Shown here: one piece after another, positions 7,601 through 46,137 of the stretch | Numbering within the stretch: position 1 is the stretch's first letter | Layout: each line of letters starts with the position of its first letter | Assembly (NCBI RefSeq): GCF_000236565.1 | Contig: NZ_AHAM01000149.1 | Coordinates: forward strand, 1 to 64,000 | Direction: 5' to 3' | Length of the DNA: 64,000 nucleotides | DNA from: Mesorhizobium alhagi CCNWXJ12-2 | GTDB taxonomy: Bacteria > Pseudomonadota > Alphaproteobacteria > Rhizobiales > Rhizobiaceae | Translations under genes and position numbers: made by a program | The notes under the pieces: generated by a model | What the model was told of the DNA's origin: nothing | What the model saw: the letters and a program-made list of their open reading frames with translations, nothing else | Database searches by the model: none

Positions 7601-8023
7601 TCAGCGCACGCGCTCGCCCGAAGAGTCGATCACGACCTCGCCATCGTCTTTGGTGAAAGGACCGATGTCCGGATTGGGCAGGATGTCGAGGACAGCTTCC
7701 GACGGCCGGCACAGCCTCGTGCCCTTGGGCGTGACGACGATCGGCCTGTTGATGAGGATCGGGTGCGCCAGCATGAAATCGATCAACTCGTCGTCGCTCC
7801 ATTTCGGGTCGCCGAGCCCGAGTTCGGCATAGGGCGTGCCCTTTTCTCGCAGCAGCTGGCGCGGGGTGATGCCCATCGCCGCGATGAGCTCGACCAGCTT
7901 CTCACGCGAAGGCGGCGTCTTCAGATATTCGATCACCTCCGGTTCCTCGCCGGACTGGCGGATCATGGCGAGCGTGTTGCGCGACGTTCCGCATTCCGGG
8001 TTGTGATAGATCGTCACTGTCAT
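7601..8023 (-). CDS. arsC: arsenate reductase, glutaredoxin-dependent ArsC
   Basis: A 140-aa thioredoxin-fold reductase of the E. coli plasmid R773 type. The catalytic cysteine is C11 in HNPECGTSRN, and the arginine-containing block LINRPIVVTPKGTRLCRP holds the arsenate-binding residues. It reduces arsenate to arsenite using glutathione and glutaredoxin. Its ATG overlaps the stop of the aquaporin gene by 4 bp (ATGA), so translation is coupled to the channel that releases its product. Confidence 0.95.
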   Translation of the reverse strand: MTVTIYHNPECGTSRNTLAMIRQSGEEPEVIEYLKTPPSREKLVELIAAMGITPRQLLREKGTPYAELGLGDPKWSDDELIDFMLAHPILINRPIVVTPKGTRLCRPSEAVLDILPNPDIGPFTKDDGEVVIDSSGERVR

Positions 8024-8715
8024 TCCGCAGGCCTTGTCTGTCGGACGGGTTTCGGTTCGGCAAGCATCCAGCTGGCCAGCGCGAGCGCCAGAACCGCGCC
8101 GAGAAGTTCGGCAAGGACAAACCCCGGCACGTCGATCGGGCGAATGCCCGCGAATGTGTCAGAGAAGGCGCGGGCGATGGCGACCGCAGGGTTGGCGAAG
8201 GAGGTTGAGGCCGTGAACCAATAAGCGGCGGTGATATAGAGGCCGACCAACCAGGGGATCGCCTCGGAGCGGAAGCGCAGGCCTGCCAGAATGGTGAAGA
8301 CGAGGCCGAATGCCGCTACCCCTTCCGCCAGCCACTGCGCGCCGCCGCTTCGCACCGTGATCGAGGCCTGCCAGATCGGCAGTTCGAACATAGCGTTCGC
8401 GAGCAGCGCGCCAGCGATGCCGCCCGCCACTTGTGCCGCGCAGTAGGCAAGCGCCATGCCGGTGGCAATTTCCCGTCGAAGGGAAAAGACCAGCGTGACA
8501 GCAGGATTGAAATGCGCACCAGAAAGTGGACCAAGGATAGTAATCAGCACCACCAAAATCGCGCCGGTCGGCAGTGTGTTGCCGAGCAGCGCGAGCGCCA
8601 CATCGTCCGTCAGCCGATCCGCCATAATGCCGGAGCCGATGACCGTTGCTACGAGGATGCCCGTGCCCAGCGCCTCAGCCGTAAGACGGCGCGGCAGATC
8701 TACAACCACACTCAC
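8020..8715 (-). CDS. aqpS: aquaglyceroporin of the MIP family, AqpS-like arsenite channel
   Basis: A 231-aa six-helix channel with both half-helix signatures: NPA in AHFNPAVTL (first half) and NPA in SFANPAVAIARAF (second half). In Sinorhizobium, AqpS in the same operon position lets As(III) made by ArsC flow out down its gradient, taking the place of the ArsB or Acr3 pump. No such pump is present here either. The GTG start overlaps the preceding stop (GTGA) and its stop overlaps arsC. Confidence 0.94.
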   Translation of the reverse strand: MSVVVDLPRRLTAEALGTGILVATVIGSGIMADRLTDDVALALLGNTLPTGAILVVLITILGPLSGAHFNPAVTLVFSLRREIATGMALAYCAAQVAGGIAGALLANAMFELPIWQASITVRSGGAQWLAEGVAAFGLVFTILAGLRFRSEAIPWLVGLYITAAYWFTASTSFANPAVAIARAFSDTFAGIRPIDVPGFVLAELLGAVLALALASWMLAEPKPVRQTRPAE

Positions 8716-9221
8716 CCCGCCTCCGGAAGGTTGTGGCCAATCTCATCCAGCCGTCGTTGCAGCGCGAGCTTGTCGATTGAAGCCATCGGGAGGCTGGTAA
8801 AGATCGAAATGCGGCTGTTGAGCATCCGGTAGGCATCGGCGAATGCGAGGTGCTTCTCGGCCTCGCTACCCTCGACGGCCGCGGGGTCAGGAATGCCCCA
8901 GTGCGCCGTCATCGGCTGCCCCGGCCAGACCGGACAGGATTCTTTCGCCGCGTTGTCGCACACGGTAAAGATGAAATTCAACTCGGGCGCGCCCGGCGCT
9001 GCAAACTCCTCCCAGCTTTTAGAGCGTGCGAAGGAGGTATCTAAATTGAGGCTCTCGAGCAGCTGCAGCGCGTAAGGGTGCACCTCACCCTTCGGCTGCG
9101 ATCCAGCTGAGAACGCCTGGAACCGGCCCTGGCCGACCCGGTTCAGTATTGCCTCGGCAAGAATCGATCGCGCCGAGTTGCCCGTGCACAGGAACAACAC
9201 GTTGAAAGGTTGATCGCTCAT
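8712..9221 (-). CDS. low-molecular-weight phosphatase-type arsenate reductase
   Basis: A 169-aa protein of the LMW protein-tyrosine-phosphatase fold. The phosphate-binding loop CTGNSARS fits CX5R near the N-terminus, and the acid loop WGIPDPAAVEG follows at about 110-120. This fold covers thioredoxin- or mycothiol-type arsenate reductases and phosphatases; ars-operon context favours arsenate reduction. The start MSDQPFNVLFLC has AAGGAG seven bases upstream and lies 13 bp after arsR. A second arsenate reductase of unrelated fold is two genes downstream. Confidence 0.88.
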   Translation of the reverse strand: MSDQPFNVLFLCTGNSARSILAEAILNRVGQGRFQAFSAGSQPKGEVHPYALQLLESLNLDTSFARSKSWEEFAAPGAPELNFIFTVCDNAAKESCPVWPGQPMTAHWGIPDPAAVEGSEAEKHLAFADAYRMLNSRISIFTSLPMASIDKLALQRRLDEIGHNLPEAG

Positions 9222-9234
9222 CGGCAGACTCCTT

Positions 9235-9567
9235 CTAGCATTCGCATGTGATGGCATCGATGACGGGACGGCACAGCTCCGGCGAGCCGTTGCAGCAGTC
9301 TTCCATGAGGTAGGCGAGCAAGTCGCGGAAGCCGGTCATGTCGGCGACGTAGCGCACGACGCGCCCGTCCCGCTCGGCACGGACCAGGCCTGCGTGATGG
9401 AGGATTTTCAGATGAGCGGAAGTAGTATTCTGGACTGCCCCCAGCCGCGATGCGATCTCCCCTGCAGGCACGCCCTGCGCGCCCGCCTTGACGAGAAGCC
9501 GGAAGATGTCGAGGCGGGTTTCCTGCCCAAGCGATGCCAGGGCGGCCAATGCGAGCTTCTTATCCAT
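9235..9567 (-). CDS. arsR: ArsR family arsenite-responsive repressor
   Basis: A 110-aa winged-helix repressor and first gene of the ars operon. The DNA-recognition helix is NTTSAHLKILHHAGL. It lacks the ELCVCDL cysteines of the R773 repressor; instead C91, C92 and C99 (DCCNGSPELC) near the C-terminus resemble the three-cysteine As(III) site of the Acidithiobacillus ferrooxidans ArsR. C108 and C110 (CEC at the end) add further thiols. Arsenite binding should release the promoter. Confidence 0.92.
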   Translation of the reverse strand: MDKKLALAALASLGQETRLDIFRLLVKAGAQGVPAGEIASRLGAVQNTTSAHLKILHHAGLVRAERDGRVVRYVADMTGFRDLLAYLMEDCCNGSPELCRPVIDAITCEC

Positions 9568-9587
9568 ATATCCACAATAACCGATAT
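9568..9587. promoter_or_regulatory. possible ArsR operator next to the arsR start
   Basis: ATATC at 9568-9572 and GATAT at 9583-9587 form a small dyad directly upstream of the arsR start codon, where an autorepressor would be expected to bind. The dyad is short and the call is tentative. Confidence 0.3.
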
Positions 9588-9733
9588 TCGAGACGGTATT
9601 ATGACAACGGGATCAGCGGCTCGAATGCCCCGATGCCCCAGTGCATCCCCCTACTACTCAGCAAGGGGCAGAACCGCAAAGCGGCCTGATCCATTCGTGC
9701 AGCAGTCTATTGCACAAGCCCGGGCACCCAGGG

Positions 9734-10735
9734 CTAATCCGCTCGCAGACCGTTCTCATCAAAAATGTGCAGGTTCTCCTCGTCATAGGCGAGCATCACC
9801 TCCTCACCCGTTTCCAATCCCTGCTGGCCGGGCAGGACGGCAAGCAGCCGATGACCGTCGGCGTCGCCGTGCACGACGGTCTCCGACCCGAGTTGCTCGA
9901 TCAGCATGACCTTCGCTTTCAGCGTCGATTCGCCATCGTCCGCGCGCCGCAGATGCTGTGGTCTGATGCCGATGGTCGCGCCGGCGCTGCCCGGGAAAAC
10001 AGCTGCTGGCAGAAAATTCATGCGTGGCGCGCCGATGAAGCCGGCGACAAACAGGTTGGCCGGCTTGTTGTAGAGATCGAGCGGCGTCCCCACCTGCTCG
10101 ATGCGCCCGGCGCGCAGCACCACGATGCGGTCCGCCAGCGTCATCGCCTCGATCTGGTCATGCGTGACATAGATCATCGTCGCCGACAGCCGCTCGTGCA
10201 GCGCCGCGAGCTCCGCCCGCGTCGAGATGCGTAGTTCCGCATCGAGATTGGAAAGCGGCTCGTCGAGCAGGAAGGCGGTCGGGTTGCGCACGATCGCCCG
10301 CCCGATCGCCACGCGCTGCCGCTGCCCACCCGAAAGCTGCCCCGGCCGCCGGTCGAGATAGGGTTCGATCTCGAGCATCCGGGCTGCTTCGGCGATCCGC
10401 TGCTCGATTTCCGGCTTTGGCATTCGCGCGTTCTCAAGCCCGAAGGCGAGGTTCTGGCGCACACTCATATGGGGGTAGAGCGCATAGGATTGGAACACCA
10501 TGGCCAGCCCGCGGTCGGCAGCCGCCACCCTGGTCACATCCTGGCCGTTGATCGCAATCTTTCCACGGGTCGGCCGGTCAAGCCCTGCGATCAGCCGCAG
10601 CAGCGTGGACTTCCCGCAGCCGGAAGGCCCGACGAACACGATCAGCTCGCCGTCCTGGATGTCCAGATTGATGTCGTGCAGGACCTTGACCTGTCCGTAG
10701 GCCCTGGAGACATCCGTGAGTGTTATACGGCTCAT
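9734..10735 (-). CDS. sugar ABC transporter ATP-binding protein, UgpC/MalK type
   Basis: A 333-aa ATPase beginning MSRITLTDVSRAYGQ. Walker A is GPSGCGKST (about 37-45), the signature is LSGGQRQRVAIGRA, Walker B is FLLDEPLSNLDAE, followed by the switch histidine in VTHDQIEAMT. The C-terminal third is the OB-fold (TOBE) domain of the MalK group (IGIRPQHLRRAD). It is the last gene of the uronate operon, 8 bp after the second permease, and powers that importer. Codons upstream of this ATG in the same frame are shadow sequence inside the permease gene. Confidence 0.94.
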   Translation of the reverse strand: MSRITLTDVSRAYGQVKVLHDINLDIQDGELIVFVGPSGCGKSTLLRLIAGLDRPTRGKIAINGQDVTRVAAADRGLAMVFQSYALYPHMSVRQNLAFGLENARMPKPEIEQRIAEAARMLEIEPYLDRRPGQLSGGQRQRVAIGRAIVRNPTAFLLDEPLSNLDAELRISTRAELAALHERLSATMIYVTHDQIEAMTLADRIVVLRAGRIEQVGTPLDLYNKPANLFVAGFIGAPRMNFLPAAVFPGSAGATIGIRPQHLRRADDGESTLKAKVMLIEQLGSETVVHGDADGHRLLAVLPGQQGLETGEEVMLAYDEENLHIFDENGLRAD

Positions 10736-37546: not shown

Positions 37547-38988
37547 GCGGCTTCGCCATTGCCTGCTGGGGTTTCGTCGCCATGTTGGCGCTGATCACGC
37601 TGCGCATGCCGATCGCGCTGTCCATGCTGGTCGTGGGCGCGGCCGGTTATGCCTGGCTGTCCAGCCCCAGCGCCCTTTTCTACTACCTTCAGACGAACAG
37701 CTATCACCAGTTTGCCAGCTACACGCTGTCGGTCATCCCCCTCTTTATTATGATGGGCGCCTTGGCAGAACGCTCCGGCATGGCCGCGACGCTATTCAAG
37801 GCCGCCGAGCGCCGTGCCGCGGGCTTCCGTGGCGGGTTGCCGATGGCGGTAATCCTGGCCTGCACGGCGTTCGGCGCGATCTGCGGTTCGTCGGTGGCAA
37901 CGACCGCGACTTTCGGGCGTGCTGCGCTGCCCGAGATGCGCCGCGCCAAGGTGGATGCGGGCTTTGCCACGGGCACGATTGCCGCCGGCGGCTCGCTCGG
38001 CATCCTCATTCCTCCGTCGGTCATCCTGGTCGTCTATGCCATCACGGCCGAACAGAACATCGCGAAGCTGTTCCAGGCGGCGCTGGTCCCGGGGCTTTTG
38101 GCGGCTGTGTTCTATTGCATCGCCATCGCCATCGTGGTCCACCGCCGGCCCGAACTCGCTCCGCCGGTGGTTTCCAACGAGGTATTCGCGCCGACACTGC
38201 CGGCGGCCTGGACCGCACCGGCTGGCGCCGCGGTTATCGTTGCGGCCCTGGTGTTGTACTTTTTGGGTTGGGCGACCATCGCCGGCGCAATTCTCATGGC
38301 TCTGATCGGTCTGCTCCTCATATTCGCCGACCCGGAAATCCTGCCCGCGGCGGGAATCGCGATCACCGTAGTCGGCGGCATCTATGGCGGCATCTTCACA
38401 CCGACCGAGGGCGCTGCCGTCGGCGTCGTGATCATGCTGATCCAGGGATTGCTGCAGCGACGTCTCGGTCGGGTGAAGATCGTCGAAGCCTTGCGGCAAA
38501 CCGCGGAGACGACGGCCATGATTTTCCTCGTCCTTCTGGGGGCGGAAGTGTTTGGCGCGTTCCTCGCCCTGTCGCAGATGCCAACAACACTCGCCCAGAT
38601 GATTGCCGGATCGGGCCTGTCTGCCTGGCTGATACTGAGCCTGATGTTGCTGAGCTATATTGTGCTCGGCGCGATCATGGATGAACTCGCGATGATCCTG
38701 CTCACCTTGCCGATCTTTATCCCAATCGTCCTGTCGCTCGACTTTGGAATGGGCGCGGAGGATGTGGCAATCTGGTTCGGCATGCTGATCCTTGTGGTGG
38801 TGGCCATCGGGCTCACCGCCCCGCCGATCGGGCTCAACGTTTTCGTCATCAACAAGATCGCGTCGGACGTACCGCTGACCCAGACCTATCGCGGCGTACT
38901 GCCCTTCATAGCCGCCGACATCGTCCGGCTTGTCGTTGTGACTGCCTTCCCCGTCCTCTCATTCTGGCTGGTTCATGCGCTAAACTGA
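37543..38988 (+). CDS. TRAP transporter large permease, DctM family
   Basis: A 481-aa subunit with about 12 helices. Family motifs: SVIPLFIMMGALAERSGMA, GAICGSSVATTATFG, GGSLGILIPPSVILVVYAI and EGAAVGVVIMLI. It carries substrate with sodium symport in the DctQM complex. Start MSGFAIACWGF overlaps the dctQ stop (ATGA). Last gene of the fahA operon. Confidence 0.94.
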   Translation: MSGFAIACWGFVAMLALITLRMPIALSMLVVGAAGYAWLSSPSALFYYLQTNSYHQFASYTLSVIPLFIMMGALAERSGMAATLFKAAERRAAGFRGGLPMAVILACTAFGAICGSSVATTATFGRAALPEMRRAKVDAGFATGTIAAGGSLGILIPPSVILVVYAITAEQNIAKLFQAALVPGLLAAVFYCIAIAIVVHRRPELAPPVVSNEVFAPTLPAAWTAPAGAAVIVAALVLYFLGWATIAGAILMALIGLLLIFADPEILPAAGIAITVVGGIYGGIFTPTEGAAVGVVIMLIQGLLQRRLGRVKIVEALRQTAETTAMIFLVLLGAEVFGAFLALSQMPTTLAQMIAGSGLSAWLILSLMLLSYIVLGAIMDELAMILLTLPIFIPIVLSLDFGMGAEDVAIWFGMLILVVVAIGLTAPPIGLNVFVINKIASDVPLTQTYRGVLPFIAADIVRLVVVTAFPVLSFWLVHALN

Positions 38989-39362
38989 TCCAGCCGCTGG
39001 TCGACGGTATCTGGCCCGCGGACATTTCAATTGCCGCGTTTGGCGCGCTCTGGAGCGCTGCCTTTTGTTGCTACGCCACGCTGAATAACTCTCCGCCTGG
39101 CTCGACGGTGGCCCCGGCGACTACCACGACGAACAGCCGTGACCGATCCTCGGCCCTCCATCGAAAGCCAGATCGCACTGCTGGACCAGATCGGGCAGTA
39201 TCCGAACGGACGGTCGAAATCCGAGGATGTCCATACGACCAAAGTCCTTGGTCTTTTCGGCGGCCGAACGCCCCAAGCTCGCGGCACCTTGCGCCTGAAC
39301 GGACTATGGGGAGCGCGACTCACGCCAAGGGTAGACAGCGAGGCGAGGCTGCGCTGCAGCCG
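38989..39362. other. 374-bp convergent gap without a recognised gene
   Basis: A GTG-started frame (39139-39447, with SIESQIALLDQIGQYPNGRS) runs into the DUF2235 gene on the opposite strand and then becomes arginine-rich; I do not call it. No T-tract terminator was found after dctM. Confidence 0.35.
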
Positions 39363-39384
39363 CCGTCGCCTCATGAGGCGACGG
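39363..39384. terminator. 22-bp perfect palindrome containing the DUF2235 stop codon
   Basis: CCGTCGCCTCATGAGGCGACGG is its own reverse complement. The TGA stop of the DUF2235 gene lies at its centre (39371-39373, minus strand). It would fold as a tight hairpin in RNA from either strand. There is no T-run, so it may be a factor-dependent terminator, a stability element or a protein site. Confidence 0.6.
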
Positions 39385-40762
39385 AAGCTTTGTAATGATG
39401 CTTCACCAGCTCATGGTCCCGCAAGGCTTCGGGCCGGTAAGGCTTAAGTATGTTGTACTGCAGCACTTCGGGCAGCTCGAAGCGGTCGATAACGGATTGG
39501 TGCAACGCCGCATCGGGACGAATCTTGCGGACCCGAGTTCGGGTGTGCCTGTAGATGCCGGTCCTTTTCTCGTCATGCTGCGGGCCGGCTGCATCGGGGA
39601 AAAGGCTCAACCAGGCCTGGTCGTGGATCAGTCCGACGGCCGCCGCGGCGTCCAGCATCCATTTGAGCGCCGTGTCCGAAAGGCGTGAATCGTTTTCCGA
39701 ATAGCTGCCCCCGACATCGGAATGGTTCCCGGCGAACCAGACCTGCTCAAATCTCTTGAGACCGTTGTCATCAGCTCCCTCGTCGCCCATCCACCGAACC
39801 GGGTTGAATTCGGCACGGTTCTCGTCGATCGAGATCGCGTGTCGGGCATAGGGGACTCGCGACGACAGCCTGAAATCGTGAAATCTCATGCGGAATTCGG
39901 TCCAGTGCCTGGTCTGGCGGGCGCTGTAGCCCGGCAAGGGGCCGGGAGCCTTCAGGTGTTCGCCTGCGTACCATATCGCGGCGAGGACAATGGCAAGGCC
40001 GCCCAGAACTCCCGTCCACCAAAGAAACGAGAAGGCAAAGAACGACAGTACCCAGGCCGCAGCCATGAGGATGGCGGCCAGCAAGGCCATAAGCATGCCG
40101 AGCGCCTGCGGATTGGCCAGCGAAGCGATAGTGTCGAACACCCCGATGAAATATGGAACGGTGTTCGACATATCGCCGTCGCCCGATCCGTACTTCCCCC
40201 TGAATTGCGCGGCCAGCAGGTCCCGCTGTTCCAGGCGCATCAGCTGTTCGGGAGTGGCTTTGTCCCGATATCTTGAACTTGTGAACTGGTAGACGTCCTT
40301 CACCGCCTCCTTTGCGATACGGATGGTCGAGTTTTCATCGCGCAGGAGCGGCGTACCGTCCGGCATTCGGGTCGGCACCCCGCAATAGGTGAGTACCCCG
40401 CCTAGCGCCCTGACCGTATACGCCCCGCGGCTGAACCCGAACAGGAAGATCCTGTCTCCCGGCCTCCACATCCTTATGATGGCCGCGTAGCACTGGATCA
40501 TGTTCAAGGTCAGACCGAGCCCGGTTGCCTGGCTGACGAGGTTGTGGAGACGGCGGAACAGCTTGAGGAAGACATTGCCTTCGATGGGTTCGGTGCCGAC
40601 GCCGGGGTCGTAGAAGGCCAGCTGTTCAGCGGGATTGACCGAATACTCTGGCCCGCATCGGGTCGCCCGGTAGAGCTTGTAGATGTTGCTCCGGTTCTCG
40701 TCGAAAAAGATTCCGCCGCGCTGTCCCGTTCCGTCCGCGAAAACAACAATGTTTCTTGGCAT
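39371..40762 (-). CDS. DUF2235 alpha/beta-hydrolase with two membrane helices (Tle1-like lipase fold)
   Basis: 463 aa. The start IVVFADGTGQRGG is the DUF2235 signature, with the nucleophile elbow FLFGFSRGAYTVR (S112), the acid in FIGVFDTIASL (D210) and the histidine in WFAGNHSDVGGSY (H347), the catalytic triad of Tle1-type phospholipases. Two hydrophobic helices at about 219-265 lie between acid and histidine and would tether it to a membrane. GAGGATGCG precedes the ATG. Last of four same-strand genes of the proposed lysis cassette, 90 bp after the holin-muralytic fusion. No VgrG, PAAR or immunity gene is seen beside it. Confidence 0.9.
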   Translation of the reverse strand: MPRNIVVFADGTGQRGGIFFDENRSNIYKLYRATRCGPEYSVNPAEQLAFYDPGVGTEPIEGNVFLKLFRRLHNLVSQATGLGLTLNMIQCYAAIIRMWRPGDRIFLFGFSRGAYTVRALGGVLTYCGVPTRMPDGTPLLRDENSTIRIAKEAVKDVYQFTSSRYRDKATPEQLMRLEQRDLLAAQFRGKYGSGDGDMSNTVPYFIGVFDTIASLANPQALGMLMALLAAILMAAAWVLSFFAFSFLWWTGVLGGLAIVLAAIWYAGEHLKAPGPLPGYSARQTRHWTEFRMRFHDFRLSSRVPYARHAISIDENRAEFNPVRWMGDEGADDNGLKRFEQVWFAGNHSDVGGSYSENDSRLSDTALKWMLDAAAAVGLIHDQAWLSLFPDAAGPQHDEKRTGIYRHTRTRVRKIRPDAALHQSVIDRFELPEVLQYNILKPYRPEALRDHELVKHHYKASVAS

Positions 40763-40852
40763 CGCATCCTCGCCGAGCAGCCCTACGGCTGGCGTTCCAA
40801 TCCTCGATATCTTCAGGCTGGAACGCCAGCCTCCCGAATCCGGCGCGATTGA

Positions 40853-42943
40853 CTATTCCATTTCGCCGGGCCGGATGATCCTGGCCACTTCGAAGTGCAT
40901 ACCGTCCGGCCGCTTGTTGAAATGGCCGCCCCAGGCGAATCCGAACCGGCTTGCTATGGGAACCAATTCTCGCACACAGCCTTTCGCTCCAATCTCCGCC
41001 GGCTCCCGGCCGAGCGGATTGAACTGAGCGTTGATGTCGAAGGCCGTTCCAAACGCATGATTGCTCAGGGTTCTCGTGCTTCCCCGGATAAAGCGCGGCA
41101 CAAATGAGCCGTCAAAGGTCAGGATGCGGTCCAGAAGCCCCTCTTTCTCCCACTGCAGCCACATTGCGATCAGTTGATCGGCAGCCAATTTGTGGAATTC
41201 GAACTCAAGCGGACCGTTCCGGCCAAGGACGGACTTAACCGGGATGCTGACCTTGGCGATGTTCTTCTCCGGCCAATCGTTTGTGATCCGAATGTTTTCT
41301 TTGTTTCCCGGCTTCGGATCGGCAACAAACGTGAAGGTACCAAAAAGTCTTTGACGTTCCGCAGTGCCAACGAGCGGAGAAAGGTTGGAGCGCGGTGCAG
41401 AGCCGGCCAGTTCCACATTGGGGCTCCGACCGCCCATCGCGGACGCAAAACTGGGCACGGCCGGGTCGGTCGCCCAACCATCTTCCATCGCCACGACCAT
41501 GCAATCCGAGAACCAGGCTACGAACTTGTCTATGTGCTTGCCAGTCCCGCGAGGATGGCAAACAAGCTTCCACCGATTGGCGTCTGCTTCGTCACGACGC
41601 AGCGATCCGGCGTTGTATGCGGCTGCAACCAGAGGAGGATCGAACCATGTCGAGCCTCTCTGCTGGGCGATGTAGGCCGTTCCTGCTTCGATAGAGGTCC
41701 GGGGGTCGAGCAAGTCGTCGCTGCGCAAATTCTTTCTTCCGGTAGCGCTGCGGGCCGTGGCCACGAGTGTCTGCATCAAGCCGACGCTCTCGTCATTGAT
41801 CTTCGGTTCCGGCCGTCGTGCATTTGAATCGCCCGAACTCTCGGTCGCGATTGTGGCGACGATCAACTCCACGGGAACGCCGTATTGCTTTGCAGCCGCA
41901 GCGCAAAGCGCTCCATAACGCTGCCAGATGGTTCGAACGGTCGTAGGCTTCCCGGGCGTTCCCTGGGCCGGCGCTCCATCGATCGAGACACCCCTCGGTG
42001 AAAGCGCCCAGCTTACGCCGTCAGGAAAATGGCGGTGAGGCTTCAACAGACCCGGGAGAAGTTCGTCCAACAGGCCAGGAGCAGCCGGCTTGACGGGATC
42101 TCCGGCCGGTTCGCTGTCAGGCTCTTTCTCCGGAATGACCGGCTTTGAAGGCGGTGGTAGATCAACGGTGGAGGAGCGCCGAACGACAACGTCCGTCGCC
42201 CTGTCGAGGACTTCCGAGGCCTGAGCGGACTGTCTGGTCTGAATTTGGGCGACGAGCTCATCCTTCGAACGAGAACCCTGGGAGGACCCGAGCCAGAAGC
42301 TCATGACTGTCGCAAATGCTGCCGTCAGCGTTCCAACACAGATATTTATTATCTGAAGAACAAAATCACTGCGTATCGGAGCAGCCGTTGAAAATTGAGC
42401 TTCGGTTAAATTGGCAAGCCCCATACCGGCGGGAACTACAGGCAGCGAGGTCAATTCAAGACTGTTTTTGTTGAATATGAACAGGCCCAGTACGACAAAG
42501 AAGCCGACCGTCACTATCATGGAAAGGGTTGGGGCAACCCACGCCACAGGCGATTGCCCAGAACTCAGGTCTCTTTGCAGAATTCGCGCTCCGCTGCGGT
42601 CCTCCCCGTCGACCCGACGGCTGTCGAGCTCCGTTTGACGCCTTTGCCCCTCGAACTCGGCGCGAACCTTTAGATCCGCGAGCGCGGCTTCGCGCTGGCG
42701 CTGCTCGTCGTCGAGCCGAACTTTGGTCTCCTCGAGGGCGATCTGCGCCAGTTTCTCGCGCAGGCTCTCCGCAGTCTGCGGGTTTTGGGTCAACTGCTGT
42801 TGTGCCTGGACGGGATCTTTGGTCTTGACGGAATCGGTCACCGCTCTGGTGACGCGATCTGCTACCGTCCCGGCGCGATCACCTGCGATTGCCTTTATTA
42901 TTTCAGGAAACAGAGTTGCAGCAATTGCGATAAGGGGGCTCAT
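40853..42943 (-). CDS. three-module envelope-lysis protein: holin-like membrane domain, lytic transglycosylase, M15-type peptidase
   Basis: 696 aa. Residues 1-110 (LFPEIIKAIAGDRAGTVADR, LREKLAQIALEETKV) resemble the GTA-type three-TM holin family, followed by helices at about 133-157 and 194-218. After a proline-rich linker (260-300), residues 340-470 form a lysozyme-like SLT domain with catalytic E368 (ATIATESSGD), GLMQ at 388-391 and AAAYNAGS at 440-447. Residues 600-690 form an M15/VanY-like zinc peptidase with ligands H629 and D636 (SNHAFGTAFDIN) and H683 (DGMHFEV). One polypeptide therefore combines membrane insertion with glycan- and peptide-cleaving activities. GAGGAAG precedes the ATG. 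The holin assignment is the least certain part. Confidence 0.85.
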   Translation of the reverse strand: MSPLIAIAATLFPEIIKAIAGDRAGTVADRVTRAVTDSVKTKDPVQAQQQLTQNPQTAESLREKLAQIALEETKVRLDDEQRQREAALADLKVRAEFEGQRRQTELDSRRVDGEDRSGARILQRDLSSGQSPVAWVAPTLSMIVTVGFFVVLGLFIFNKNSLELTSLPVVPAGMGLANLTEAQFSTAAPIRSDFVLQIINICVGTLTAAFATVMSFWLGSSQGSRSKDELVAQIQTRQSAQASEVLDRATDVVVRRSSTVDLPPPSKPVIPEKEPDSEPAGDPVKPAAPGLLDELLPGLLKPHRHFPDGVSWALSPRGVSIDGAPAQGTPGKPTTVRTIWQRYGALCAAAAKQYGVPVELIVATIATESSGDSNARRPEPKINDESVGLMQTLVATARSATGRKNLRSDDLLDPRTSIEAGTAYIAQQRGSTWFDPPLVAAAYNAGSLRRDEADANRWKLVCHPRGTGKHIDKFVAWFSDCMVVAMEDGWATDPAVPSFASAMGGRSPNVELAGSAPRSNLSPLVGTAERQRLFGTFTFVADPKPGNKENIRITNDWPEKNIAKVSIPVKSVLGRNGPLEFEFHKLAADQLIAMWLQWEKEGLLDRILTFDGSFVPRFIRGSTRTLSNHAFGTAFDINAQFNPLGREPAEIGAKGCVRELVPIASRFGFAWGGHFNKRPDGMHFEVARIIRPGEME

Positions 42944-43027
42944 GGCTCTTCCTCGCAGAAAATTGGGTTGCGATTGCCGAGGTGCTGGCCCCAGCCAGAC
43001 CTCGGGGCTGTTGACGCACGCTTCGGC

Positions 43028-44620
43028 TCACTCGCCGGCTGGAGTAGCCGGAGCCAGCGGAGCATTCACAGGAGCTACTGTGGCCGCCCTTGCATGAGTT
43101 CGAGGCGGATCCCGTCGCGCAGGCGGCTGCGCACGGTTGGACGATATTTCGGCCTGGCGCTTGCAGAGGGCCGCACACGCGAACGCCGTCGATGCTGCCG
43201 ATACGTTGATGATGATCATCAGCGCGGCCAGGTCTACGCCGTTGGTGCCGAAAGACAGTCGCAACTGATGCTGCACTTGTGCCGCTGCATAAAAAAGCGC
43301 TGCCAAGGCCACCCCTACCGCCAGGATCAGGATCGTGGATATGGTTTTCCACCACATCCGCTCCATGCCGTCGTCCATATAGCGCAGCAGCATGAAGCAG
43401 ACGAACAGCGCTATGAAAGAGTGTAGCAGGTAGATGGGCAGGCTGAGCTTAACCAAGGCCATGAATTCTGTGGTTTTTCCAGGCCCGTAGGCTCCGTATT
43501 GAAAGAACGCCTGGCAAGTGTCGAAAAGGACGGTGCCGATCAGGACGAACGCGAACAGGCCCGCATAGCGGCTAAAAAGGGCTGTCGTTCCTTCGAAGCG
43601 CTGAGATTCGTCGAGCTTGGCGATTTGTCTTCGGCCAAAAGCGCTCACCCATGTCCCCAAGGCAATGCCGGTGGCCAGAAAGATCGGCCCGGCCTGCGAT
43701 ATGAGGTACTGGCCCGAGAACTCGAGATTGTTTGGCCAGAAGTCAGGTACGGCGCCCAGGAACTGCGCTGCCAGACCGTCAAACGCCGGAATGAGGTTCC
43801 ACAGGAATGTCATTCCGACAAGAAACAGAATGCCGCCCGCAAGGAAGGCCTTCGGCCAGCCGGAATTCGGAAGCATGGAAACGCGAAGGTCGTCGGCCAG
43901 GCGCGAAAGCGACGCCACGCCGCTTTCCCGCACGGTCGCGACAGCCGCCACGTCAACGAGCTGTCGCGTGAGAATCTTCAGTTCCCGCCGTGTCGCCTTG
44001 TGAAGCTCGGGTTCGTCATCGAGCTTCAGCCGCGCGAGATGAGTCGCGTAGAGTTCCGCGTCGGCATAGGCGTCGATCCGTCCCACCCATGCGTCGCTTC
44101 TCAACACCTCAACCTCCTTGGCCAATTTCTCGGCGTTCGGGCTGCGCGTGAATATCTGATTGGCGAAAAAGCTGGACGCTCTCAAGACTCTGGTTGGGAT
44201 GCCCATCCAGGCATGGAACAAATTCCGCTGCACATTCCCGATGTTGGAGAGCATCGGAATGCTCTGCTGCGCAAGGCCCATGTATACGGCAACAATGTAA
44301 AGAGGATAATTGATCGTATCGACGAATTTTTTAAGTTCATCGCTCGGAGTTGCTCCGGATATTTGGGCCCAACCGGATAGAATCGTGGGAGAAATTTTGC
44401 ACAGGATAAAATAGATGACGAATGTCGCGGCGAGGAAAGCCGCGAGCGTGGCGGAATAGGTCAGCCGCCCGGCAAAGTCGATCGCCCGCAAATTTGGAAT
44501 GAGGGCGGAGCGGGCGGCGAAATCCTGATCTGGCGATCTGAGCTCGTTGAACTTTGCGAACTGATAGGCGCCGAGCAGAGCAGCGCCGGCCCAGAACTCG
44601 GTAGAGTGAAGCAGGTCCAT
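43028..44620 (-). CDS. polytopic membrane protein of unknown family
   Basis: 530 aa, starting MDLLHSTEFWAGAALL behind GAGGGGG. Hydrophobic segments suggest eight or nine helices: two or three before residue 120, a soluble region of about 120 residues (140-250, with YADAELYATHLARLKLDDEP), then six helices including FLAGGILFLVGMTFLW and SRYAGLFAFVLIGTVLF. The C-terminal 55 residues are soluble and Pro/Ala/Arg-rich. No family is recognised. It sits 20 bp after the small secreted peptide and 84 bp before the holin-muralytic fusion, all on one strand. Confidence 0.85.
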   Translation of the reverse strand: MDLLHSTEFWAGAALLGAYQFAKFNELRSPDQDFAARSALIPNLRAIDFAGRLTYSATLAAFLAATFVIYFILCKISPTILSGWAQISGATPSDELKKFVDTINYPLYIVAVYMGLAQQSIPMLSNIGNVQRNLFHAWMGIPTRVLRASSFFANQIFTRSPNAEKLAKEVEVLRSDAWVGRIDAYADAELYATHLARLKLDDEPELHKATRRELKILTRQLVDVAAVATVRESGVASLSRLADDLRVSMLPNSGWPKAFLAGGILFLVGMTFLWNLIPAFDGLAAQFLGAVPDFWPNNLEFSGQYLISQAGPIFLATGIALGTWVSAFGRRQIAKLDESQRFEGTTALFSRYAGLFAFVLIGTVLFDTCQAFFQYGAYGPGKTTEFMALVKLSLPIYLLHSFIALFVCFMLLRYMDDGMERMWWKTISTILILAVGVALAALFYAAAQVQHQLRLSFGTNGVDLAALMIIINVSAASTAFACAALCKRQAEISSNRAQPPARRDPPRTHARAATVAPVNAPLAPATPAGE

Positions 44621-44640
44621 GGCATTTTCCCCCTCGCTCC

Positions 44641-44763
44641 CTAAGGACAAACGCCGTTCGGGCACTGCTGTGCATACGCTTCGGGTATTGCCTCAAGAAG
44701 GGTTACCGAGCCGATCAGCGCGGATAGGAATCCAAAAACCAGAAGAGCTTTGAACAGTTTCAT
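44641..44763 (-). CDS. 40-aa secreted peptide precursor with two cysteines
   Basis: MKLFKALLVFGFLSALIG opens a clear signal peptide (basic start, hydrophobic core to residue 23) with an AYA site at 29-31. Cleavage there would leave nine residues, QQCPNGVCP, with C34 and C39 placed to close a small disulfide loop around a Pro-Asn-Gly turn. GGGAGG lies five bases before the ATG, and the stop is 20 bp before the 530-aa membrane protein. There is no lipobox. Too short for most gene finders; translation is inferred from the ribosome site, signal-peptide logic and operon position. Confidence 0.72.
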   Translation of the reverse strand: MKLFKALLVFGFLSALIGSVTLLEAIPEAYAQQCPNGVCP

Positions 44764-44903
44764 GCTGGCCTCCCGTGAAGGTGCACATGGCCTCGCTACC
44801 TGAAGTAACGAGAATGCGAGGGTTCGGGAGCGGAAAAATTACTATGCCCGAGCTCGGCGCATGCCGAACATGTACGACCACAGTCTCCGATAGTCTGTGA
44901 TAT

Positions 44904-45305
44904 TTGCCACACATGTTAGCCCGTCCAGTACATAAGCTGCCTAGAAGCCGGTTCGTTGTCATCGGCGGCATGCGACGCCGACGGTCGGGCGGGGCTCGCG
45001 AGGACCAGGAGCCGATCGAGATCGGCATCGGTCTGCATTACGGCGAGGTGGTCGTCGGCAACGTCGGCCATGCCCAGCGCCTCGAGTTCACGGTGCAGGG
45101 CGATGCAGTCAACATAGCCAGCCGGCTCGAACGCCTGACCCGCCATACCGGCACAAGGCTGATGCTCGGCGACGAACTGGTTCGAGCCGTGCAATCACGC
45201 GGCCATGAGCTGACCACCATCATCCAAGGTCTCCGGCCCAAGCGGACGCGCACGGTACGCGGAAGGCAACGGTCAGTCGCGATCTGGTCTGAAGGAGACA
45301 GATGA
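44904..45305 (+). pseudogene. C-terminal remnant of a class III adenylate/guanylate cyclase
   Basis: From about 45010 the frame reads [40 protein letters not shown] and [20 protein letters not shown], which is the second half of a class III cyclase catalytic domain through its normal C-terminus. The metal-binding first half and any sensor domain are missing; the upstream residues are arginine-rich and unlike a cyclase. With no start region and lost metal aspartates it should be inactive. Confidence 0.8.
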
Positions 45306-45522
45306 CGGCCTCATCGCGCATAAAAAGGCTCATCAGCGACGGGAGACTCCCAAATCAGGGTTCCACGGAGAAAAATCTCCGCGGCTGGGAACATCGGCCT
45401 GCGGCCATTGTTGGGACGCGAGGGCTGGGTCCCGCCTGTAGCGGCGACCTCCACTCCATCCGATCCTCCCCCGGTTCGCATGCTCTGTCGCGGATGAATC
45501 CCGCTCTAGCAAGGAGCCAGAC
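45306..45522. other. upstream region of the aldehyde oxidoreductase operon
   Basis: A small hairpin CGGAGA-AAAA-TCTCCG lies at 45366-45381. No gene is recognised. The promoter of the following operon should be here. Confidence 0.35.
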
Positions 45523-46137
45523 ATGACCAGTTATGATGTGACGAGGCGAGAGCTGCTGGCAGGCACCGCGGTGGCTGGCGTCGCTCTTGCGGGAGTAAAT
45601 CTCATGCCTGAATTCACGTCGCTGGCGGCGGCGCAAGATGCGGCGCCGGCAGCGGCTCCGCTCGATATCGTGCTGCGTGTCAACGGAACCGAGCAAAGGC
45701 TGACCCTCGACCCGCGAACGACGCTGCTCGATGCGTTGCGCGAGCACCTGCACCTCACTGGCTCGAAGAAGGGCTGCGGCCTTGGACAGTGCGGCGCGTG
45801 CACGGTGCTGATGGACGGCAAACGCGTGAAATCGTGCCTCTCGCTTGCTGCCCTAGCGGAGGGGCGTGAGATTACGACGATCGAGGGGCTGGCCCAGAGC
45901 GAAGAGCTTCACCCGCTGCAGGCGGCTTTCATCGAGCGCGATGCATTCCAGTGCGGCTATTGCACGCCCGGGCAGATCATGGCCGGCGTCGCCTGCATCG
46001 CCGAGGGCCATGCCGGCTCGCCGCAGGAAATCCGGCAATGGATGAGCGGCAATCTGTGTCGCTGCGGCGCGTATGACCATATCGTCGCGGCCATCCAGGA
46101 TGCGGCGGCCGTGTCCAGCTCGGTGGGAGGAGGCTGA
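45523..46137 (+). CDS. paoA: aldehyde oxidoreductase, 2Fe-2S subunit (PaoA/YagT-like)
   Basis: A 204-aa subunit with a twin-arginine signal (VTRRELLAGTAVAGVALAG). All eight cluster cysteines are present: GCGLGQCGACTVLMDG plus KSC for the first cluster, and QCGYCTPGQ with NLCRCGAY for the second. It passes electrons from the molybdenum subunit to FAD. The signal predicts folded export of the complex to the periplasm, as for E. coli PaoABC. First gene of a three-gene operon. Confidence 0.94.
   Translation: MTSYDVTRRELLAGTAVAGVALAGVNLMPEFTSLAAAQDAAPAAAPLDIVLRVNGTEQRLTLDPRTTLLDALREHLHLTGSKKGCGLGQCGACTVLMDGKRVKSCLSLAALAEGREITTIEGLAQSEELHPLQAAFIERDAFQCGYCTPGQIMAGVACIAEGHAGSPQEIRQWMSGNLCRCGAYDHIVAAIQDAAAVSSSVGGG

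Follow-up and report, generated by a model that had tools for sequence, protein, structure and literature searches.

A holin-like phage module, a lytic transglycosylase and an M15-type peptidase in one predicted protein of Mesorhizobium alhagi: a possible domesticated lysis module

A holin-endolysin fusion is cited in six Clostridium sporogenes genome sequences, with one accession given, in the excerpted text of PMC9527704, which also covers the flipping model proposed by Brueser and Mehner-Breitfeld for TpeE-type holins. In type 10 secretion cells reuse a holin and a hydrolase for release without lysis (excerpt of PMC10109510), and release with lysis has been reported as well (PMC10847048), while the Rhodobacter gene transfer agent (GTA) works through a holin-endolysin mechanism (excerpt of PMC13236601). 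Here we describe a related arrangement in a stretch of 64,000 nucleotides of Mesorhizobium alhagi CCNWXJ12-2 (contig NZ_AHAM01000149.1, positions 1 to 64,000, hereafter the window), in which one gene, P0001, encodes a phage-type membrane module followed by an SLT lytic transglycosylase domain and an M15 zinc peptidase domain. We give about an even chance to the reading that a phage holin-endolysin pair has been turned into one bacterial protein, which would serve as a domesticated one-piece lysis or wall-opening module.

The preliminary description of this DNA had read the open reading frame (ORF) as a single chain in which a holin-like part precedes an SLT domain and an M15 peptidase, with all catalytic residues retained. 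Position, strand and length of the frame were confirmed (Table 1), and the predicted composition was borne out by Pfam and by profile-profile comparison. PF01464 (SLT) scored 64.4 bits (E 8.8e-18) against a cut-off of 21.3, and PF13539 (Peptidase_M15_4) scored 57.2 bits (E 2.6e-15) against a cut-off of 25. E368, GLMQ (388-391) and YNAG (443-446), which we take to be the catalytic glutamate and signature motifs of the SLT domain, and H629, D636, D680 and H683, presumably the zinc ligands of the peptidase, are invariant in six of six aligned rows, and the fusion therefore combines, for either enzyme family, a score above the cut-off with the expected residues. The motifs searched for were whole in all eight unbroken SLT-M15 fusions. 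The ratio of nonsynonymous to synonymous substitution rates (dN/dS) against two sister species was 0.12 and 0.11 for the whole fusion, 0.09 and 0.13 for the N-terminal module, 0.06 and 0.03 for SLT, and 0.13 and 0.09 for M15. The gene is under purifying selection, and the low values in all three parts argue that the fusion is not due to chance.

Table 1. Coordinates of the fusion gene, its domains and its surroundings in the window
Feature	Position	Strand	Basis or remark
Holin-like/SLT/M15 fusion gene (P0001)	40853..42943	minus	ATG start, 696 aa
N-terminal phage lysis-cassette module, phrog_1544 type	42245..42943	minus	residues 1-233; phrog_1544 profile, profile-profile comparison and hydropathy
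SLT lytic transglycosylase domain	41582..41902	minus	residues 348-454, E368; PF01464 and invariance
M15 zinc peptidase domain	40886..41083	minus	residues 621-686; H629, D636, D680, H683; PF13539 and invariance
P0003, polytopic membrane protein, partner candidate	43028..44620	minus	530 aa; upstream of fusion
P0002, Tle1-like/DUF2235 alpha/beta hydrolase, optional third gene	39371..40762	minus	463 aa; PF09994 E 4.3e-62
Perfect 13-bp inverted repeat, 19-nt loop	40787..40831		between fusion and P0002
Islet shared with M. camelthorni/G002	39347..44975		blastn, 19.9-kb stretches, E <= 1e-10

For the N-terminus, a GTA-type holin had been proposed. PF11351 (GTA_holin_3TM) gave no match to the fusion at E <= 1 and only one sub-cut-off match in the whole genome, located elsewhere (E 0.035); nor did any Pfam or NCBIfam holin family appear among the N-terminal matches at E <= 1, the other Pfam match being RUFY4 alone, a coil-type, sub-cut-off match (E 0.0034). 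The phage side of the proposal stood, and the GTA type did not. The PHROGs profile phrog_1544 matches residues 1-93 only (E 1.3e-11 to 1.6e-10), and membership of the module beyond residue 93 was shown by a profile-profile comparison of nine fused modules (alignment A3) with ten phage proteins (99.4%, E 3.5e-21, 162 columns). The same profile spans nearly the whole of a free 179-aa ORF in genome G818 (E 1.2e-23) and of a free 173-aa ORF in G799 (E 1.4e-23), and it matches the N-terminal halves of two further fusions (E 4.2e-11 and 1.9e-15). The module ends in GSS..S..K in fusions, of which G, S and K recur in the phage forms. Helices had been predicted at residues 133-157 and 194-218, and hydrophobic segments were computed accordingly at 139-157 and 195-213, with a third at 3-21 barely over threshold. 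Homology places the N-terminus among the membrane proteins of phage lysis cassettes. Relatives at loci L008 and L009 belong to phrog_6637, which is linked only weakly to a named family of holins (for L009, E 0.0095); at L008, an alphaproteobacterial metagenome-assembled genome, a holin-like ORF is followed by a phage lysozyme and then by a Lipase_3 protein whose start looks signal-like by eye (7950-9972).

The free relatives of the module lie where a lysis protein would be expected. In phage records, tblastn found 186 records with the G818 ORF and 61 with the G799 ORF (50 rows listed), and ten phage regions picked for variety were examined. The next gene was annotated as a peptidoglycan hydrolase in seven of them: an M15 or hedgehog/DD-peptidase in three (Vibrio 1.106, Vibrio 1.275 and Synechococcus MinM1), a lysozyme, an amidase and an endolysin in one each, and GH108 (given in the annotation note) in Rhodoferax P26218. 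In the eighth region the module protein itself is annotated as holin and an M15 gene follows four genes further; of the remaining two, one has a DUF5675 neighbour (Pfam) and the other, in Salmonella phage Arash, no hydrolase neighbour. Throughout these regions the phrog_1544 proteins are separate genes of about 160-185 aa. Likewise, a hydrolase-like ORF overlapped or lay within 50 nt in 20 of 30 IMG/VR loci compared with 16 reference proteins (22 of the loci come from one query and are closely related); a DUF5675-like ORF lay that close in one further locus, and none did in nine, two of which carry a GH108-like ORF 2 kb away. A search of viral contigs with P0001 returned one free phage relative, and the fused-module alignment returned nothing. 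In the G818 prophage the free module stands between a phage lysozyme/endolysin and tail genes, with the major head protein upstream, and in G963 a module-like ORF follows an endolysin-type ORF (E 6e-6). M15 and GH108 are the lysin types found both beside the module in phages and fused to it in bacteria. Since phrog_1544 members adjoin peptidoglycan hydrolase genes in phages and in the prophage, the fusion is best read as a fused phage lysis pair.

Rather than being a lone case, the fusion belongs to a family whose lysin parts have been exchanged. The searches sampled genomes and scored few candidates in each, so the following counts are not frequencies. A close search of genome contigs gave six loci, five of them full fusions. 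A search of 121 relatives with P0001 at E <= 1e-30 gave five genomes with a match, the own genome among them: three copies are whole, in the genus of the window, the frame of G059 is disrupted between SLT and M15, and G109 has SLT only. In G109 an Amidase_2+SLT protein (L023, 10-2327) is followed by a separate 168-aa ORF, holin-like by eye and with no family match, next to a two-component-like pair (by eye); no phage structural gene was recognised on this 6.4-kb contig. Alignment A1 (E <= 1e-30) matched in 8 of 397 genomes sampled from the order, with full length in the own genome only; at most two candidates were scored per genome in this search, so that misses are possible. The module alignment A3 (E <= 1e-6) found 7 of 385 genomes of the class, fused in two (the own genome and G818), and 13 of 295 in the family including Ancylobacter, fused in 12.

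After removal of four loci that are the same DNA as four genomes, these searches amount to 21 fusions in 20 alphaproteobacterial genomes, in six arrangements. SLT+M15 accounts for nine fusions and GH108 for seven. Two more combine an SxGC-type domain (as in Rhizobium jaguaris, phrog_3000), a peptidoglycan-binding domain, the module and GH108, one of which (G981) lacks the GH108 glutamate motif; the others are GH108 with a sub-cut-off CHAP domain, M15 without SLT, and SLT+peptidoglycan-binding+SxGC domain in R. jaguaris, which has the weakest N-terminal module (phrog_1544 E 1.3e-4), one fusion each. A 1021-aa chain of G847 (G847a; L098, 8124-11189) unites an SxGC-type domain, a peptidoglycan-binding domain, the holin module and GH108; Pfam recognises nothing in its first ~270 aa, and a GH19-like look of this N-terminus, noted by eye, was accordingly dropped. 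A module tree of 26 of 32 rows (six were left out because the end motif was not matched, L106 among them) groups the rows mostly by lysin type and supports one exchange, G847b (GH108+CHAP) with G919 (M15), at 100/98; with weak deep forks and a long branch for the R. jaguaris row, it does not decide between one fusion event and several. That the lysin was exchanged while the module was kept across the 21 fusions suggests selection for the pairing of module and enzyme itself.

How such a protein might work can be outlined from its parts. The N-terminal module would form a helical hairpin across the inner membrane, with SLT and M15 held harmlessly on the cytoplasmic face. Once enough copies have gathered, or upon a trigger, the modules would open or flip the membrane and bring the tethered enzymes to the peptidoglycan, where, judging from family function, SLT would act on the glycan strands while M15 would split the stem peptides; hole and wall cut would thereby be coupled one to one. 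The producing cell, or a fraction of the cells, might lyse, or the wall might open locally and release something. In each of the 20 fusions examined (all but G981) the hairpin loop is neutral or negative in net charge, and this pattern, together with the two chains that have lysin domains before as well as after the module (G847a, G981), weakly favours a topology with both ends inside and the enzymes in the cytoplasm rather than outside. If the ends are inside, the enzymes would be stored harmlessly and could reach the wall only upon a membrane breach or a flip of the C-terminus. The dedicated lysis or envelope-crossing device that had been proposed for this gene is a plausible candidate function, and the family suggests that these bacteria may reuse the exit tools of viruses for their own ends.

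Several observations weigh against this reading. PHROGs annotates phrog_1544 as function unknown, the free module relatives match no Pfam holin family, and only 1 of the 50 phage rows listed carries a holin annotation; hole formation is inferred from the place of the module in phage lysis cassettes. Lysine and arginine residues are more numerous before the hairpin than in the loop in 13 of 20 fusions, equal in three and fewer in four, a small bias between segments of unequal lengths. The AlphaFold model of A1 was poor (pLDDT 41, pTM 0.25) and lends the topology no structural support. One of the nine SLT-M15 copies, that of G059, has a broken frame. No trigger emerged: no exact GTTC-N7-GTTC or GAAC-N7-GAAC box lies within 350 bases upstream of 24 start sites, and no EcfG or strict sigma-70 motif in the 300 bases upstream of 26 start sites. 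Finally, in five genomes of one genus (g137, to which the Ancylobacter genomes belong) the GH108 fusion is a neighbour of rpoD-dnaG, a residence that could equally suit a mild housekeeping role. Among these five, DnaG was confirmed by Pfam in two and RpoD in three, the other assignments being made by eye. In some of the dnaG-rpoD copies one small or unrelated ORF lies in between.

Of the regulatory signals, SOS control was considered and rejected for want of an exact LexA-type box at the 24 start sites, six of which have a box with one mismatch. A promoter scan of the window from 38900 to 45600 found 1 against 1.7 in shuffles. Before the five dnaG-rpoD-linked fusions (L097, L099, L100, L101 and L102) a hexamer resembling TTGACA, exact in four and TTGACG in the fifth, is seen by eye at a similar place; the strict sigma-70 pattern gave no match there.

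We also entertain, more tentatively, an extension of the one-piece lysis reading: Alphaproteobacteria might own combinatorial single-chain lysis machines, in which one phage membrane chassis carries various wall-cutting enzymes before or behind it, each chain ferries its own enzyme across the membrane (hole and cargo being one molecule), and a P0003-type partner sometimes controls the firing for programmed lysis or release.

Among the alternatives, the one that survives best, though we think it unlikely, is that the old holin part is an anchor only and the enzymes are periplasmic, remodelling the wall for growth, division or the passage of an envelope machine. Envelope machines such as the type VI secretion system (T6SS) use transglycosylases. 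The genome has a T6SS sheath gene, which lies on another contig, and both the purifying selection and the rpoD-dnaG position in five genomes of one genus would suit such an enzyme. Against it, the fusion is sparsely distributed (8 of 397 genomes of the order at E <= 1e-30; a fusion in 12 of 295 genomes of the richest family), the weak charge pattern favours cytoplasmic ends, and the end motif GSS..S..K is kept even though an anchor does not need it.

The gene that follows the fusion brings in a further alternative. P0002 has an intact GFSRG motif and stands beside the fusion in the window and in L003/G002, and the perfect inverted repeat between the two genes could be a terminator or an attenuator. 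The fusion might accordingly be a one-piece type 10 (holin/peptidoglycan hydrolase) secretion system that opens the wall without killing and lets a neighbour such as the Tle1-like hydrolase exit, which we rate somewhat lower than the anchor. The published description is of a holin, a peptidoglycan hydrolase and a large enzyme close together (excerpt of PMC10109510), and in the excerpt of PMC9527704 the Serratia ChiX is such an endolysin and the natural holin-endolysin fusion backs the flipping model. In the window, holin and peptidoglycan hydrolase are encoded together, in one gene ("holin" by homology only), and the nearby cargo candidate is adjacent in the window and in L003. Other lipid-cutting enzymes occur near relatives of the fusion, namely a patatin divergent beside the G818 fusion (E 1.2e-8), a patatin in the cluster of the P0003 homologue of Rhizobium sp. 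T136 (E 1.6e-21) and the Lipase_3 gene after the L008 holin-lysozyme pair (E 4.5e-21); they are a lead only. The homology with G001 stops at the fusion, which leaves the G001 islet without P0002, and tblastn found no P0002-like gene in four Ancylobacter/Bradyrhizobium loci (L004-L007). Since the own genome has four Tle1-like genes, one such neighbour proves little.

The neighbour on the other side, P0003, matches no family above cut-off; it has six hydrophobic segments by hydropathy and is less constrained than the fusion (dN/dS 0.28 and 0.24). A homologue lies directly upstream of the fusion in four of the 20 genomes (G000, G001, G002 and G847, the last found by hidden Markov model (HMM) search, E 1.2e-68), where P0003 would be the likeliest controller. 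Fifteen of the 20 genomes showed no P0003-like gene in the stretches examined, and the G981 contig begins at the fusion, which hides its upstream side. The upstream membrane protein of R. jaguaris gave blastp E-values of 0.003 and 1.6e-4 within a set of six proteins but no HMM match at E <= 1, and it is left out of the P0003-like proteins. In Rhizobium sp. T136 a P0003 homologue is divergent from a peptidoglycan-binding/SxGC lysin in which no module was found; this plasmid locus (L068, 4425-14028) holds the peptidoglycan-binding lysin, the P0003-like protein, a metallopeptidase-like ORF (by eye only, Pfam giving none), an MBL-fold-like ORF (by eye) and the patatin. An M15-S8-MBL set was seen at L033.

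The fusion and its neighbours form a small islet of 4-5.6 kb that occupies an unrelated site in each of three congeneric species: its identity is 86% with G002/M. camelthorni over 39347-44975 and 81% with G001 over 40845-44921, and the flanks within the 19.9-kb stretches share nothing. It holds the membrane-protein gene and, in two of the three species, the Tle1-like hydrolase gene. At its edge the window carries a 133-aa fragment (44904-45305, plus strand), the last part only of a guanylate cyclase domain, which has no match in the two sister stretches. Such scattered sites would agree with a suicide or conflict module on a small mobile islet, perhaps directed against phages or rivals, in which the fusion is the lethal effector and P0003 its sensor or restrainer, and P0003-like genes do pair with lysin genes in G847 and, divergently, in T136. 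We nevertheless regard this as improbable: PADLOC returned 0 families at E <= 1 for all three islet proteins, no P0003-like neighbour was found in 15 of the 20 fusion genomes, no integrase or transposase appeared among the ORFs scanned around the fusion, and no repeat pair of at least 13 nt was found at both islet ends.

That no phage structural gene surrounds the fusion, as had been claimed, held for ten chosen ORFs between 29 and 47 kb, all of them cellular (HlyD, CsgH, GntR, FAA hydrolase, three TRAP transporter parts, the cyclase fragment and two molybdopterin dehydrogenase-type parts); ARAGORN found no transfer RNA in the window. Neither the window fusion nor a GH108 fusion is covered to 80% by any of 50,697 phage records or 72,556 plasmids, the nearest plasmid case for the window protein being that of Rhizobium jaguaris (52% of the query). 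The only Terminase_6N match of the genome (E <= 1e-5, Terminase_6N being the only terminase family searched) and its only GTA_TIM match lie in one GTA remnant on another contig. This collapsed GTA (L067, 5281-7872, contig C111) is a single 863-aa frame that runs from a Terminase_6N start in frame to a GTA_TIM end, followed by Phage-tail_3 and Rcc01698_C. With PF11351 unmatched and the GTA locus a remnant, the identity of the fusion as a GTA lysis gene was rejected. Although all modules are of phage type and the Rhodobacter GTA uses a holin-endolysin mechanism (excerpt of PMC13236601), a prophage leftover or GTA lysis gene is therefore a most improbable source, given the cellular neighbours, the strong purifying selection, the collapsed GTA and the phage records.

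The one-piece lysis module that we prefer has close counterparts among known systems. The phrog_1544 phage proteins have the same membrane module and the same kinds of partner enzyme, but as separate genes, whereas the window type is fused and stands in bacterial genomes, without phage genes among the scanned neighbours. Among the literature matches listed, which cover few subscription papers, one natural and one engineered fusion were seen and no alphaproteobacterial holin-lysin fusion. The engineered one, Hol46_Lys17, likewise joins a holin to a lysozyme but is a man-made antibacterial (excerpt of PMC12817945), unlike the natural fusion of the window. Type 10 systems also consist of a holin and an endolysin reused by the cell, and the window has an enzyme gene adjacent as well; they comprise two or more genes, whereas the window has one gene and a cargo candidate only, and neither the L004-L007 loci nor the G001 islet showed a P0002-like gene.

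The natural C. sporogenes fusion, compared by its description as TpeE type, likewise joins a holin to its endolysin by translational fusion within a bacterial genome (excerpt of PMC9527704), so that the kind is already known and the alphaproteobacterial SLT+M15-type variant appears to be new. TpeE has one transmembrane helix and a Gram-positive host (same excerpt), in contrast to the Gram-negative hosts, hairpin module and many lysins of the window family, in which, unlike the C. sporogenes fusion, lysin domains also precede the module (G847, G981). If the preferred reading is true, cells would retain phage-derived lysis genes as a stable part of their own gene set, independently of prophages, tailocins and GTAs. 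An enzyme tied to its module has no free passage through a hole made by a neighbouring molecule, and a natural family in which the module is covalently tied to an enzyme at either end would therefore offer direct test objects for deciding between large holes and the local flipping proposed for TpeE-type holins.

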